Positions 48,562 through 54,717 of a stretch of 64,000 nt of DNA are shown one piece after another. Where the stretch lies: the NCBI RefSeq assembly GCF_015840335.1, contig NZ_CP060395.1, positions 2,269,277 through 2,333,276 on the forward strand, written 5' to 3'. The first letter of the stretch is position 1. The number at the start of each line of letters is the position of its first letter. The translations under genes were made by a program, and so were the position numbers. The DNA comes from Synechococcus sp. CBW1108. Its GTDB lineage: Bacteria; Cyanobacteriota; Cyanobacteriia; PCC-6307; Cyanobiaceae. A model generated the notes under the pieces. It was not told where the DNA came from. It was given only the letters and a program-made list of their open reading frames with translations, and did no database searches.

Positions 48562-49653
48562 ATGCTCAAAGCCGGAATCGTCGGACTGCCCAACGTCGGT
48601 AAGTCGACCCTGTTCAACGCCCTGGTGGCCAATGCCCAGGCCGAAGCCGCCAACTATCCCTTCTGCACGATCGAGCCCAACTCGGGCATCGTTTCGGTGC
48701 CGGATCCCCGCCTCAACCAGCTGGCGGCCCTCAGCTCCAGCAAGGAGATCATCCCCACCAAGGTGGAGTTTGTGGATATCGCCGGCCTGGTCAAGGGGGC
48801 CAGCCAGGGGGAGGGGCTGGGCAACAAGTTTCTGGCCAATATCCGCGAGGTGGACGCGATCGTGCACGTGGTGCGCTGCTTCGAGAACGACGACGTGATC
48901 CATGTGAGCGGTTCGGTGGGCCCGGCCCGCGATGCCGAGGTGATCAACCTGGAGCTGGGCCTGGCCGACCTATCCCAGGTGGAGAAACGCCGCGAGCGGC
49001 TCAAGAAGCAGGCGCGCACCAGCAAGGAGGCCCAGGCCGAAGATGGGGTTCTAGAACGGGTCCAGGCCGAGCTGGAGGCCGGCGGGGCGGCTCGCAATTT
49101 GGTGTTCAGCGCCGAGGAGGCACTGCTGCTCAAGCCCCTAGGGCTGCTCACCGCCAAGCCGATTATCTACGCCACCAACGTGAGCGAAGACGACCTGGCC
49201 GGCGGCAATGCCTATTGCCAGGAGCTGGCCGCCGTGGCCAAGCAGGAGGGGGCTGCCACCGTCCGCATCTCAGCCCAGGTGGAGGCCGAGCTGATCGAGC
49301 TGCCCGAGGCGGACCGCGCCGAATTCCTGGCGGGCCTGGGGGTTGAGGAAGGCGGCCTGCAGAGCCTGATCCGGGCCACCTATGCCCTCCTCGGCCTGCG
49401 CACCTATTTCACCACCGGCGAAAAGGAAACCCGCGCCTGGACGATCCAGGCCGGTATGACCGCCCCCCAGGCCGCCGGGGTGATCCACACCGATTTCGAG
49501 CGGGGCTTCATCCGCGCCCAGACGATTGGCACCCAGCAGCTGCTGGAGGCGGGCTCGCTGGCCGCAGCCCGCACCAAGGGCTGGCTGCGGGCCGAGGGCA
49601 AGGACTACATAGTGGCGGAAGGGGATGTGATGGAGTTTTTGTTCAACGTCTGA
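48562..49653 (+). CDS. ychF: redox-regulated ATPase YchF (OBG family)
   Basis: 363 residues. G1 [19 protein letters not shown]3 [17 protein letters not shown], unusual G4 that favours ATP, and a C-terminal TGS domain ([20 protein letters not shown]). Binds ribosomes and responds to oxidative stress. Divergent from the adaptor gene. Confidence 0.95.
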
Positions 49654-49671
49654 GGTTCCGCGTGGGCTGCC

Positions 49672-49687
49672 GCGGCGTGAACGCCGC
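49672..49687. other. GCGGCG-tgaa-CGCCGC hairpin after ychF
   Basis: A 6-bp stem with a 4-base loop, starting 19 bases past the ychF stop. No T-tract, so a transcription terminator is possible but weak. Confidence 0.35.
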
Positions 49688-49689
49688 TG

Positions 49690-49836
49690 GTGCGATGGGC
49701 GCGAGGGTTGCTGGCGGTGCTGGCCCCAGGTTGTCTTGTCGGGCTGCAGCGGTTTGCGGTTCCAAGGGGGGGGCTCAACGCTCCAGAGGTTCGGAACGTG
49801 CTGCATCAGGACGGTGAACTGGTGGTGTTGGTGTGA
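49690..49836 (+). pseudogene. possible decayed small gene after ychF
   Basis: Two reading frames that look continuous in translation are separated by a run of seven G near 49766: one gives LLAVLAPGCLVGLQRF, the other NAPEVRNVLHQDGELVVLV then a stop. A single base change in the G-run would join them. I cannot name a family, and the start is not visible. Very tentative. Confidence 0.22.
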
Positions 49837-49838
49837 AG

Positions 49839-50198
49839 TCAGGGCAGCTCAAGCCAGCTGCGCAGGGCGAGATCGAGTTCAGCCAGGGTTCCTGATTCCA
49901 GGATCCCCACCACGGCACCGACAGCGGCTGTGGGCACTGTGAAAAGCTTGTCTGCCATGAGCTGTGAGGGTTTGCGCAGCCTATTGCTGCCACTGGGGTT
50001 CACGGGAATTCGCACCAGTGGTGCCTCCAGCAGGGTGCTGGTCAGCGGACAGAGCGTGACACTTGGATGACCTTGAAGCCAGCGATTGGCCTGCACCACG
50101 ACGGCTGGTCTTGGCTTGCCTGAGTACACCCCAGAGGTGGCAACCGTCACGATTAATCCCCGTTGTAGAGCCACCGTCATGCTGTCCAACTCCGTCAT
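49839..50198 (-). CDS. MazF/PemK-type toxin (mRNA interferase)
   Basis: 119 residues. MazF-like order: RGLIVTVATSGVYSGKPRPA, VVVQANRWLQG, VTLCPLTSTL, then LMADKLFTVPTAAVGAVVG. The family cleaves RNA and is held in check by a small antitoxin. The ATG at 50198 overlaps the antitoxin stop (ATGA), the classical coupled arrangement; an internal ATG at 50180 is an alternative. The patch is less GC-rich than its surroundings. Confidence 0.85.
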   Translation of the reverse strand: MTELDSMTVALQRGLIVTVATSGVYSGKPRPAVVVQANRWLQGHPSVTLCPLTSTLLEAPLVRIPVNPSGSNRLRKPSQLMADKLFTVPTAAVGAVVGILESGTLAELDLALRSWLELP

Positions 50199-50422
50199 GC
50201 GGTCCAATCAGTCCAGTCCGGAAGTTGCTCACTCCAGTTGGGTTTGCCGCTGTGTTCAGCAATCAAAGCCGACTGACGCCGAGCCTCATCGTTATTACTG
50301 AAGCGCTGCACATATTGCGCTATCGCCTCACGCACACAAGCGCTCCGGCTCTTTCCCATGCTCCGCGCCAGCCTATCCAACTGCTGCTCCAGCTCGGGCG
50401 CCACCCGCACACCGATCGCCAT
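50195..50422 (-). CDS. ribbon-helix-helix antitoxin
   Basis: 75 residues. VRVAPELEQQLDRLARSMGK then SRSACVREAIAQYVQRF is a typical RHH (CopG/MetJ) dimer domain, followed by a polar, Trp-rich C-terminus (NWSEQLPDWTDW) that likely wraps the toxin. First gene of the pair, ATG at 50422. A palindrome lies 8 bases upstream. Expected to repress its own promoter. Confidence 0.8.
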   Translation of the reverse strand: MAIGVRVAPELEQQLDRLARSMGKSRSACVREAIAQYVQRFSNNDEARRQSALIAEHSGKPNWSEQLPDWTDWTA

Positions 50423-50430
50423 TGTGGATC

Positions 50431-50441
50431 TCGTTAAACGA
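50431..50441. promoter_or_regulatory. TCGTT-a-AACGA inverted repeat, candidate antitoxin operator
   Basis: A perfect 5-bp inverted repeat around one base, 8 bases before the antitoxin ATG. RHH antitoxins usually bind short palindromes here; this is the best candidate in the gap. Confidence 0.45.
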
Positions 50442-50586
50442 TTTGTAGAACACCCTAGCGCCCTCTTTCCGCATCAACTCATCTGTTGATGCCTTCTCCC
50501 CTCTGGCCGCTGGTGCTAATCAGTCATGCTTGACGAGACCCCTGTGGATCGTGTCGTGACCGTCAAGAGTTCGATCTCTCTAAGCG

Positions 50587-50806
50587 ATGACCAGGACGCC
50601 TGTGCCAGATCCGATCCCTGGCGGAGACCGGCCGTTTCCCTTCAATGAGTTCCGTTCTTCAGCAGGGTCTAGATCTTTTGTGGCAGCAGCACGCCGATGC
50701 CCAGGCCGATCGGGCGGCCTTGCACGCCCTCCTTGCTTAGCGGGCAAGTGGCCCGTTTGTGACGTCCGGCGAGCTGCGTGAGCGCCTGAGCAAGTGGCGG
50801 GCATGA
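50587..50806 (+). pseudogene. decayed ParD-type antitoxin (frameshift plus TAG)
   Basis: Joining two frames gives MTRTPVPD / RSLAETGRFPSMSSVLQQGL / DLLWQQHADAQADRAALHAL, then LLA, a TAG (50738-50740), and RASGPFVTSGELRERLSKW. The ETGRFPSMSSVLQQGLDLL pattern fits ParD (SGRYxSxSEVVREGLRLL). The first eight codons (ATG at 50587) are one base out of frame with the rest, near a gatccgatcc duplication, and the TAG stops the frame mid-gene. The stop overlaps the ParE-type ATG (ATGA), as in a live operon. Confidence 0.7.
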
Positions 50807-51177
50807 CAAAAGCTGCATGGACCGTGGTGTTCGCCGCCGCTGCCGAATGGGATCTCGCCCTCATCGAGGCCTTTCTCAGTAAGGCCTATCAAGACTTTGG
50901 AGACCCCGCTGACCAAGCTGCACTCCACGCGGCAGCTAGAGTTGACGCCATAGTTGCCCACTCGGAACGACTGGCTGTGGCCCCAATGCGCGGGTCCATC
51001 CACGACGACCTCTTGCCAGGCCTGTGGTATCTCGCCCTTGGTCAGGCGATCTACTAGGCCATCTACTGGTTTCAGATCTGCGCAGAAGCGGCCTAGATTT
51101 GCATTCTCGCCGTGTTTTATGGCGGACAAGATCGTCAACTTCACATCCTCGTGAGGCTGCTTGGAACGAGGCGCTGA
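50803..51177 (+). pseudogene. decayed ParE/RelE-type toxin with two in-frame TAG codons
   Basis: From the ATG at 50803 the frame reads through SERLAVAPMRGSIHDDLLPG and LWYLALGQAIY, hits TAG (51055-51057), continues AIYWFQICAEAA, hits TAG (51094-51096), then ICILAVFYGGQDRQLHILVR and LLGTRR to a TGA. The LAVFYGGQD...LVRLLG end is the ParE C-terminus. Around the first TAG a 12-base unit (gcgatctactag / gccatctactgg) is duplicated. Without suppression only a truncated 84-residue product is possible. Confidence 0.78.
51046..51069 (+). repeat. 12-bp duplication, 2 units, in the ParE-like pseudogene
   Basis: gcgatctactag then gccatctactgg, 10 of 12 identical; the first copy carries a TAG where the second has TGG. 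In-frame period. Confidence 0.75.
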
Positions 51178-51516
51178 GAGCAGTGCGGCTTGTGGCCTTG
51201 AGCTCCAGTAAACCGGATGTCAAGCGACATTGAAAACAGAGCCACTTCCGACCAGCTCGCTGATCTGATCAGCTGCCCCCCCCGCTTCCACGCCGCCACT
51301 GCTCAGGAATGTGTGCAGCTCGCACAGACCTATGCACATCGCCCGCGCAACCATGTTCGCCCGCATCGCCCAGCAAGGCCAAGCAACGCCGAGCTCAGTG
51401 GAATCCTGATCAGCGCGTTCGAGTTGGGATTTCCCTGCTGGGGGAACACGGCGGATTTGCCTGATCCTTTGGAAGGGGGCCGGGGGCCGGGGGCGGGGGC
51501 TCAGAATGGCCCCAAC
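51178..51516. other. gene-poor stretch of accessory DNA
   Basis: No convincing gene on either strand. The open frame that starts at 51217 is low in coding character until the ATG at 51517. The right end carries the G-quadruplex motif. It may hold remnants of mobile or toxin-antitoxin DNA, but I see none that I can name. Confidence 0.5.
51475..51499 (+). other. four-tract G5 quadruplex motif upstream of a small gene
   Basis: G5-cc-G5-cc-G5-c-G5, with loops of one or two bases, 17 bases before the ATG at 51517. It is among the strongest possible quadruplex patterns, on the plus (mRNA-sense) strand. Confidence 0.85.
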
Positions 51517-51747
51517 ATGCCCCCTTACCCCGTGACCGATCCGGCCCAGCAAAAACCAGCCCAGACAAACTCACCTGCCAACTCACCTGCCGACTCTCTC
51601 CACGACTTCGACGTGCAGAAGGAGCTTCATCAGAAGATCCGCAACGATCCCGACTACGACGATTGGGAGTACGGCACCGAGCCCCTGCCCCATGAGGCCT
51701 GGGTGGCCAGCCAGGCCCCTAAGCCTGAGCCGCCTGCCGCGGTTTAA
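51517..51747 (+). CDS. small acidic hypothetical protein, 76 aa
   Basis: A Pro/Gln/Asn/Ser-rich N-terminus with a 12-bp repeat (encoding NSPA twice), then a compact acidic part, LHDFDVQKELHQKIRNDPDY and DDWEYGTEPLPHEAWVAS. Such short DPDYDDWEYG-type proteins look like conserved picocyanobacterial unknowns. ATG at 51517 is chosen because coding character begins here. Its 3' end overlaps the convergent MFS gene by 29 bases. Confidence 0.6.
   Translation: MPPYPVTDPAQQKPAQTNSPANSPADSLHDFDVQKELHQKIRNDPDYDDWEYGTEPLPHEAWVASQAPKPEPPAAV
51568..51591 (+). repeat. 12-bp perfect tandem repeat, 2 units
   Basis: aactcacctgcc twice, encoding NSPA NSPA in the 76-residue protein. Confidence 0.85.
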
Positions 51748-52957
51748 GTCGTCTCACCAGGTTGAGCCCCGCCAGGCACAGCAGGGTCATCCCTATCCAG
51801 AAGCCGCCGGCGTGGCGCTGGGCGTCGAGGGCCCGCCCCGCCAGCAGCGGTGCAGCCAGGGCGCTCAGGGCAAAGCACTGGGAGAAGAGGGCCATGGCCA
51901 GGCCCCGATGTTCAGGCGGGCTCAGTTCGATCACCGCCTCGGTGGCGATCGGCAGAAATGCAGCTGCCCCCAGGGCCAGGGGCAGCTGGGCCAACAACAC
52001 CAGCCACAGGCCCTGGCGGGTGAGGGCCGAGAAGGCCAGCAGCACTGTGCCGGCGGCAAAACAGGCGAGGCTGAGTCCGAGGCCGTGGGCGATTGGCCTG
52101 CGGGCCAGGGCTTGTCCCACGGGCCACTGGATCAACACCAGCAGCCCCAGCTGAATGCCAACCAGCAGGGCGCCGAGGCTCTCGGGCATGGCCGCCCGCT
52201 CCAGCCCGCCCCGCACCAGATCTAAAGGCAGGGCGCTTTGCATCAATACGGGTAGGGAGGTGGCCAGCAGGCTGATCGCCAGCACGGGTAGCAGGGCTGG
52301 CAACCATTGGCGCCAGGGGGTCTTGGCGGCGGCGGTGGCAGCGGACGGCTCCGGGTTGGGCAGGGGCTGGCGCAGCAGCAGCAGCACGAGCACCAGGGCG
52401 CTGATGCTGTCGACCAGGTAGATCCCCCGCAGCCGCCCCGCCGCCGCCAGCAGGGCTCCCACCAGGGCGCCCGTGGCGATGCCTGCCGCATCGGCGCTGC
52501 GCGCCATGGCATAGCCCCGGGCAGAGGGGATTGGCGCTGGACCCGAGCTGCAGCCCAGTGGCACTGCCAGCTCGATCGCCGGCCAGTAGAGGCCTGCGGC
52601 TACGCCCAGCAGCAGTTGGCCCTGGACATAGCCAGCGAAGCTGCTGGTGCTCGCCAGCCGCAGGTCACCAAGCACAATGGCCACTGCGGCCAGCAGCACC
52701 GGGATTGAGCAGGCCAGCCCCCGATCCACCAGGGCGCCGCTCAGCAAGCGCCCCAACGTGCCGGCCAGGGCCGCCAGCGCCAGCCCCTGGGTCACCGCCT
52801 GGGCGCTGAAGGCTTCCTGGTGGAACACGATCGGGGTCAGGTAGAGCACCCCGCCTGCCCCCACCGAGGCCACCAGCCGAACCAGGGACACGTGGCGCAG
52901 GGCAGCCGGGAACTGATCCAGCCATCCGCTTGGACGGATGCGGTGGAGTTTGCACAA
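51719..52957 (-). CDS. MFS transporter
   Basis: About 412 residues and 12 helices: SLVRLVASVGAGGVLYLTPI, ALAALAGTLGRLLSGALVDR (the loop 2-3 GxLxDR pattern), then ARGYAMARSADAAGIATGAL. Substrate unknown; it resembles sugar/drug efflux carriers. The start is uncertain: the region LDQFPAALRHVSLVRLV looks conserved, so the TTG at 52957 is used; the GTG at 52891 would shorten it. Divergent from the hydrolase gene, overlaps the 76-residue gene. Confidence 0.82.
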   Translation of the reverse strand: MCKLHRIRPSGWLDQFPAALRHVSLVRLVASVGAGGVLYLTPIVFHQEAFSAQAVTQGLALAALAGTLGRLLSGALVDRGLACSIPVLLAAVAIVLGDLRLASTSSFAGYVQGQLLLGVAAGLYWPAIELAVPLGCSSGPAPIPSARGYAMARSADAAGIATGALVGALLAAAGRLRGIYLVDSISALVLVLLLLRQPLPNPEPSAATAAAKTPWRQWLPALLPVLAISLLATSLPVLMQSALPLDLVRGGLERAAMPESLGALLVGIQLGLLVLIQWPVGQALARRPIAHGLGLSLACFAAGTVLLAFSALTRQGLWLVLLAQLPLALGAAAFLPIATEAVIELSPPEHRGLAMALFSQCFALSALAAPLLAGRALDAQRHAGGFWIGMTLLCLAGLNLVRRLKPRQAAQA

Positions 52958-52977
52958 GCAGGGCAATTCACGGCAGG

Positions 52978-54717
52978 GTGCCAGTCTGGCGGGTGTCCTT
53001 GCCCCTGGTTCCACTTCCGGTCTTGTTTCTGCGTCCCTTCGCTGCCCTGCTCCTCGGTGCCATGCCCCTCGGTGCCCCGGCCCTCGGTGGGATCGCGAGC
53101 CTGCTGGCTCCCCTGCCGGCCCAGGCTGCCGATGAGTTGCGCCTCCAGCTTGACGGGCTCGAGCTGCCGATTGATCTGGTGGAGCTGGAGGCCTTTACCC
53201 GCCAGCCGATGCAGTCCACCCGCCCCGGGGACGGCAATAGTGATCTGGCTGGGAATTTGGCTGGGGATCTAGGGGTGTGGCTCAACCTGCTCCAGCCCCA
53301 GAGCCGTCGTGACCTGATCCGGCTGCTGCAGGCCCCCCTGTTGCAGAACCGCAGCTTTGGTCAACAGCTGCTCAACAGCTGGACCGGAGAGCAGATGCTC
53401 AAGGAAGCCGGAGGGCTGCTCACCGTTACCGTCCCCGCCAGCAAGGGCCAGGGTCCCAGCACGGCCCCGTTGCTGCTGGCCAGCCTGCACCAGCTGCTGC
53501 AAAGCCAGGGCAGGGTGTCCACCCTGGAGCTGTTGCGCTCCCTGCCCGTGGCCAGTGTCACCCTGCGCATCGACGGGGCGCTGGAGCTGGCCAGCCAGTG
53601 GCGCAGGCAGCTCCAGCGTCAGAACGGCGCCCTTGCCCAGCTGCGCCAGCTGGGTTTGCCGCGGCGTAGTTCCAGGCCCCTTGCCTTTACGGGCTCCTTG
53701 AGCCGCCTGCCCAAGCGCCTGCTGTTGACCGTGCCCCACCGGGCCACGCCCCTGCCGATTGAGCTCTGGCCAGCCCACCAGCCCCGCCGGGGCCCCTGGT
53801 TGCTGGTGATGCCCGGCCTCGGCGGCAGCCCCGACCAGCTCAGCTGGCTGGCGTCAGCCCTGGCCGATCGCGGCTGGCCGGCGGTGGTGCTGGAACATCC
53901 CGGCAGCGACCAGCAGGCACTGCAGGCCTCCCTGCTGGGGGATGCGCCGCCACCGGGAGCCGAAGCCCTGCCCCAGCGCCTCGCCGACCTACAGGCCGTG
54001 CTGGAGGCCCAGCGGGAGGGTCACTTGCCTTCCTTTGGCCCTTCGCCGGCCGGCGAACAGGGGGTGGTGCTGCTAGGCCATTCCCTTGGGGGCTTGACGG
54101 CGCTGATGGCTGCTGGTCTGGTGCCGGAGCGGGGTTTGGCCCGGCGTTGTGAGCTGGCCATGGTTTCCTTGCCGCTCGCCAACCTCTCGCGGCTGATGCA
54201 ATGCCAGCTGCCCGGGATCATCGGGGATGGGGCGGCCAGCGCCGCACCGGGGCTCGCCCAGGTTTCCCAGCCCACCCCGTTGCTGGGGGTGGTGGCTTTC
54301 AATGGTTTCGGCAGCCTGCTCTGGCCCTACCGGAGCCTGCAGGATCTCAATCTGCCCGTGCTGCTGGTGGGAGGCAGCCTTGATCTGGTCACCCCCCCTG
54401 TTCAGGAGCAGTTGGCGGTGTTCGCCCGGGCCCGCCACCCCCGCAGCCGGCTGGTGCTGGTGGAGGGAGCCAGCCACTTTTCGCCCGTGCGGATTGAAAG
54501 CCGGGGCGAGGCCCTGTTTCAACTGGGAGAGGAGCTGGTGGGCATCGCGCCGCTCAAGGTGCAGGCCCTTTTGCTCAACTTCACCACTGAATTTCTCCAG
54601 GGTATGGAGCAGCCCAGCCTGCTTTCCCCCCAGCTTCGCGAGCAGGAGGGCGTGCAGGCCTACGTGCTTGACGGCGGCCAGGCCCGCCGTTGGAAACAGC
54701 GGATTCCGGAGCCCTGA
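52978..54717 (+). CDS. exported alpha/beta hydrolase with N-terminal DUF1400
   Basis: About 579 residues. Signal peptide, VLFLRPFAALLLGAMPLG through PLPAQAA, then DUF1400 (about 55-210: LDGLELPIDLVELEAF, LGVWLNLLQPQSRRDLIRLL) and an alpha/beta hydrolase with nucleophile elbow GHSLGGLTAL, acid LVGGSLDLVTPP and His EGASHFSPV. Cyanobacterial DUF1400 proteins are predicted lipases or esterases of unknown substrate. GTG at 52978 is chosen for a clean signal. The signal contains a 15-bp repeat. Confidence 0.85.
   Translation: MPVWRVSLPLVPLPVLFLRPFAALLLGAMPLGAPALGGIASLLAPLPAQAADELRLQLDGLELPIDLVELEAFTRQPMQSTRPGDGNSDLAGNLAGDLGVWLNLLQPQSRRDLIRLLQAPLLQNRSFGQQLLNSWTGEQMLKEAGGLLTVTVPASKGQGPSTAPLLLASLHQLLQSQGRVSTLELLRSLPVASVTLRIDGALELASQWRRQLQRQNGALAQLRQLGLPRRSSRPLAFTGSLSRLPKRLLLTVPHRATPLPIELWPAHQPRRGPWLLVMPGLGGSPDQLSWLASALADRGWPAVVLEHPGSDQQALQASLLGDAPPPGAEALPQRLADLQAVLEAQREGHLPSFGPSPAGEQGVVLLGHSLGGLTALMAAGLVPERGLARRCELAMVSLPLANLSRLMQCQLPGIIGDGAASAAPGLAQVSQPTPLLGVVAFNGFGSLLWPYRSLQDLNLPVLLVGGSLDLVTPPVQEQLAVFARARHPRSRLVLVEGASHFSPVRIESRGEALFQLGEELVGIAPLKVQALLLNFTTEFLQGMEQPSLLSPQLREQEGVQAYVLDGGQARRWKQRIPEP
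53053..53097 (+). repeat. 15-bp tandem repeat, 3 units, in the hydrolase signal peptide
   Basis: ctcggtgccatgccc, ctcggtgccccggcc and ctcggtgggatcgcg encode LGAMP, LGAPA and LGGIA, so the hydrophobic core of the signal has a repeat origin. Confidence 0.75.

Follow-up and report, generated by a model that had tools for sequence, protein, structure and literature searches.

The four-run G tract that precedes a small conserved gene in the window (the whole 64-kb stretch of DNA analyzed here) is probably a private, imperfect 7-bp repeat (unit GGGGGCC, about 4 copies) that grew by slippage beside a promoter and has no selected role. Two considerations make an ordinary expanded repeat, as opposed to a conserved switch, the most likely reading: relatives with the small gene are without the motif, and the tract borders on a stretch that varies and is prone to insertions. 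The features that enter into the argument are the following (window coordinates, strand, description, and the basis of each assignment):

51475..51499, + strand: G-rich tract, four G5 runs forming a putative quadruplex on the non-template strand (pattern, G4Hunter, tandem-repeat call)
51502..51509, + strand: CAGAATGG, family-conserved box, candidate -10 element with its hexamer at 51502-51507 (position in homologues)
51532..51747, + strand: small gene, conserved, 71 aa with GTG as its probable start (homology); in the preliminary description it begins at ATG 51517 and has 76 aa
48562..49653, + strand: ychF, left neighbor (TIGR00092, E 1.2e-147)
51719..53014, - strand: MFS transporter gene, convergent right neighbor (PF07690, E 8.9e-23)
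49654..51474, no strand: family-variable 1.8-kb insertion between ychF and the small gene, ending at the tract (locus comparison)
49839-50207, - strand: PemK/MazF-like toxin gene inside the insertion (PF02452, E 9.7e-17)
50195-50422, - strand: ribbon-helix-helix partner of the toxin gene, inside the insertion (PF01402, E 1.1e-07)
51218..51252, no strand: IS21-type end remnant, 35 nt (94% identity beside istB/istA-like genes elsewhere in the genome)

The preliminary description reported a G-quadruplex motif at 51475-51499 with four G5 tracts and loops of 1-2 bases, and was exact in both sequence and coordinates: the + strand reads GGGGGCCGGGGGCCGGGGGCGGGGG, with loops CC, CC and C, and falls under the rule for putative G-quadruplexes (four runs of at least 3 G, loops of 1-7). 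On either strand of the 64-kb window this is the sole four-tract match with 4- or 5-G tracts, and it has the top 25-base G4Hunter score (2.84; the runner-up scores 2.60); a three-run quadruplex match lies on the other strand at 51510-51531. Four-tract motifs built on G3 are common: there are 33 in the window, and 20 simulations per Markov order give 21.7 +/- 3.5 (order 1), 12.1 +/- 3.2 (order 3) and 11.1 +/- 3.4 (order 5). A search of the whole genome (3,226,220 bases) for three G5 tracts returns 15 overlapping matches, counted by eye; in such a search a site with four G5 tracts must show two match starts separated by 6 bases or more, and by this reckoning only 51475-51499 has 4 x G5 in the 3.2-Mb genome. 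Among the matches are three G homopolymers, of 21, 18 and 18 G, none of them long enough to accommodate four G5 tracts plus loops.

Could so rare a motif have arisen by chance? Markov simulations of orders 1, 2, 3 and 5, extending over 9.6 Mb each, yield no four-G5-tract match at any order. Markov models make no tandem repeats, and the period-7 repetition of the tract explains why chance of the Markov kind fails to account for it: Tandem Repeats Finder reports period 7, unit GGGGGCC, 3.9 copies and score 45, the repeat being imperfect. The pattern GGGGGCN, searched for in the genome, is matched exactly at the tract alone; the remaining matches carry 1-2 mismatches.

The gene downstream is a genuine one, coding for a conserved protein of many picocyanobacteria. 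Homologues are found in 18 of the 40 genomes searched (its own genome included), and named genomes, when scanned, gave 116 confirmed loci. The best 80 of these form the set for the locus counts given here; the 80 include Cyanobium, Synechococcus, Vulcanococcus and further cyanobacterial records. (One record, L109, is titled Bifidobacterium breve and carries the picocyanobacterial small gene together with its neighbors; it is probably a mislabeled metagenome bin.) The conserved core of the protein is HDFDVQKELHQKIRNDPDYDDWEYGTEPLPHEAWV; the protein has no match among Pfam, NCBIfam and PDB sequences. Its surroundings are also recurrent: among the best 80 of the 116 loci, ychF lies upstream within the fetched stretch at 53, and the convergent MFS gene is present at 77. 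In some relatives (e.g., L003, L011, L016) the first part of the coding region contains C-rich four-tract motifs, which place a candidate quadruplex on the other strand.

The preliminary description placed the tract 17 bases upstream of a 76-residue gene. That is exact for the frame opened by ATG 51517, which is separated from the tract by 51500-51516 and ends with TAA at 51745-51747; the start is probably GTG 51532 instead, 32 bases from the tract, for a protein of 71 aa. The choice of GTG is favored by the closest relative, G015, which has an in-frame TGA between the positions corresponding to ATG 51517 and GTG 51532. Two other genomes, G010 and G001, have ATG at the position of the GTG (MTDPAQQ and MTDPSQQ, respectively); in G010 a further in-frame ATG stands where the window has ATG 51517, which counts against regarding GTG 51532 as certain.

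Between the tract and the gene lies the box. A NANAATG sequence is found 21-24 nt before an in-frame start at 43 of 79 loci (from the best 80 of the 116), loci that are kin to one another, so that these are counts of non-independent events; over 200 letter shuffles the count averages 0.5 and never exceeds 3. Upstream of the box the sequence is not the same from group to group, G001, G007, G014 and G024 included, in which ychF is not adjacent. A looser rule finds the box in 53 of the 80 named loci (again the best 80 of 116) and in the window, and finds the core without a box in 26 of the 80; a variant, GARGATGG, searched for over the whole locus, occurs at a like distance in 10 of these 26. Window-wide, CARAATGG is not enriched (2 found, 4.0 expected), and the case for the box rests on its position in homologues. 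A consensus scan for sigma-70 promoters of 49600-51800 finds none; since that scan requires a match at -35, it neither supports nor excludes the box. The ATG inside AGAATGG was also considered as the start of a leader peptide: by eye, the short frame that it begins overlaps the gene start in several genomes (ATGA/GTGA), while elsewhere the ATG either shares the gene's frame or soon meets a stop, and the idea was rejected on inspection. Directly 5' of the box, C-run/G-run hairpins can be seen by eye in L094, L106, L123, L131, L140 and L148.

We take CAGAATGG to be a putative -10 element. Transcription usually starts about 7 nt after such an element, which would put the start near 51514. On this reading the transcript, and with it the mRNA leader, would begin 3' of the G tract, which comes to lie at about -39 to -15. 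Any effect of the tract would then most likely be private and exerted on transcription: on polymerase binding or promoter opening of one gene, rather than on translation.

How far is the tract shared? On the gene strand the search ran over 220 nt, beginning 250 nt and ending 30 nt ahead of the conserved core; these 220 nt take in some coding sequence and approximately 100-150 nt that precede the start (L120, having no core, was left out). None of the 79 homologous loci (from the best 80 of the 116) has four runs of at least 3 G with loops of 1-7. The preliminary description had proposed conservation in homologous loci as a check on function, and the outcome speaks against leader or translation control. 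A closer look at the 60 nt before the box, in 15 of 17 relatives, finds four runs of at least 3 G in none of the 15. G015 is the only one of comparable G-richness (three G5 runs, best G4Hunter score 1.84); the other 14 have at most two runs of at least 3 G. G015 has both flanks in common with the window and two adjacent G5 tracts, without a four-tract motif; relative to it, the window carries additional repeat units. Replication slippage most likely lengthened a shorter G-rich sequence, such as G015 still keeps, an origin that we infer from the comparison with this one close relative. Most likely, the tract is without a selected role in the cell. One point against this explanation is that G-richness recurs: a run of at least 4 G lies close to the box in 13 of 54 rows, often (by eye) as one arm of a hairpin.

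The alternative that fares best has a DNA quadruplex on the non-template strand acting in cis on the promoter of the small gene, as a hindrance or an aid to RNA polymerase at the -35/spacer position. The position of the tract directly upstream of the box and the great stability of the motif are in keeping with this, and there are published cases and models of quadruplexes near bacterial promoters (discussions of PMC5801747 and PMC4692102). The 79 loci (from the best 80 of 116) lack the motif though the gene and its box are kept, and we regard such a cis effect as unlikely. An elaboration of the idea, that a heptamer repeat grown by slippage at the place of the -35/spacer became a copy-number-tunable quadruplex promoter element of the small gene in one picocyanobacterial lineage, is quite improbable.

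A quadruplex in the RNA, controlling translation from the 5' leader as the preliminary description had it, is credited with even less. The energetics are favorable: an RNA energy model of 51455-51534 puts the quadruplex fold at -65.9 and its competitor at -42.8 kcal/mol, a preference of about 23 kcal/mol, and the tract would probably fold as a quadruplex when single-stranded. Yet the conserved box, 21-24 nt before the start, would as a -10 element imply a transcript that begins 3' of the tract, and the motif is missing in relatives (0 of the 79 loci drawn from the best 80 of 116); leader control is highly improbable.

Whether the tract marks, or promoted, the recombination that brought in the insertion calls for a look at the surroundings. 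The spacer that separates ychF from the small gene has the look of a hotspot for insertions: at the 53 loci with ychF upstream (among the best 80 of 116) it ranges from 8 to 3411 nt, being no longer than 150 nt at 23 and no longer than 400 nt at 30. Among the 80 named loci (best 80 of 116) a MazF-like gene lies in the spacer of L073 alone, which is G015's record; DNA similar to the toxin-antitoxin spacer is sited elsewhere in G007, G010, G020, G005 and other genomes. The segment 51411-51464 resembles the 3' end of an uncharacterized gene on a G007 contig, and the tract stands between such insertion debris and the box, at the gene-side edge of the insertion. By eye, a ParD/ParE-type pair seems to have decayed at 50647-51057, where the first frame contains a stop; the second frame has no match in Pfam or NCBIfam. 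The end matching 51218-51252 adjoins istB/istA-like genes at G000:C1:3182594.

The preliminary description's suggestion of a recombination junction in accessory DNA holds up as regards place: the 1.8-kb insertion, which carries toxin-antitoxin genes, does end at the tract, and the 35 nt of IS21-type end are about 220 nt away. A marker role finds no support. None of the repeats flanking the insertion stands out, those at its two ends being no better than chance-like pairs; the sole pair that touches the tract (49766-49777 / 51492-51503, 12 nt, 92%) is ordinary for that stretch and no better than other pairs there; and relatives without such a motif show spacers of every length. The chance that recombination is involved seems very slim. 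The remaining notion, that the tract is coding and supplies a glycine-rich joint (GGRGPGAGA) to a 176-aa fusion protein at 51217-51747, has in its favor a frame that is open through the tract, and is rejected: in G015 stop codons and changes of frame interrupt it, and the protein has no family match.

An active tract would offer a natural example of a bacterial promoter with a very stable quadruplex next to it, and the relatives that have gene and box without the motif would provide a ready-made comparison. As matters stand, its main lesson is that a private repeat can look striking as a motif. Of more use, perhaps, are the by-products: a conserved small protein, often encoded beside ychF, and its promoter-like box.

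Known systems offer partial parallels. The promoters of GC-rich bacteria treated by G4PromFinder (PMC5801747) are similar in that a G4 motif immediately precedes a -10-like element; the rule stated there employs tracts of 2-4 G and the tract has five. Applied to the sense strand, the G4PromFinder rule picks 51547-51571 as the maximal AT element, and the 50 bp that precede this element contain no motif; the tract itself lies immediately before the first window of 40% AT (the 25-mer 51501-51525). According to the discussion in that paper, initiation could be impaired by a quadruplex at -35, and promoter clearance by one located between -35 and -10 on the antisense strand. A search of PMC6091082 for promoter words found no passage. 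The quadruplex repeats described as unstable in E. coli (PMC7023247) are alike in being G-rich tandem repeats, of which variation in copy number is to be expected, and their instability is in line with slippage of the tract; it differs from them in being a natural chromosomal site, known here from sequence alone. Closest in form are the heptameric repeats GGGAATC and GGGGA(C/T)T of Xanthomonas and Nostoc, as presented in PMC4692102. Here the differences are three: 1) the unit is GGGGGCC, in place of GGGNATC or GGGGA(C/T)T; 2) the tract is one site, while those repeats are abundant genome-wide; 3) the tract is on the sense strand, while those repeats, where upstream of genes, are preferentially antisense. 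The likenesses are a 7-nt G-rich unit in about 4 copies, a location beside a gene, and the capacity, in principle, to form a quadruplex, whose effects in E. coli, according to the discussion in that paper, depend on position.
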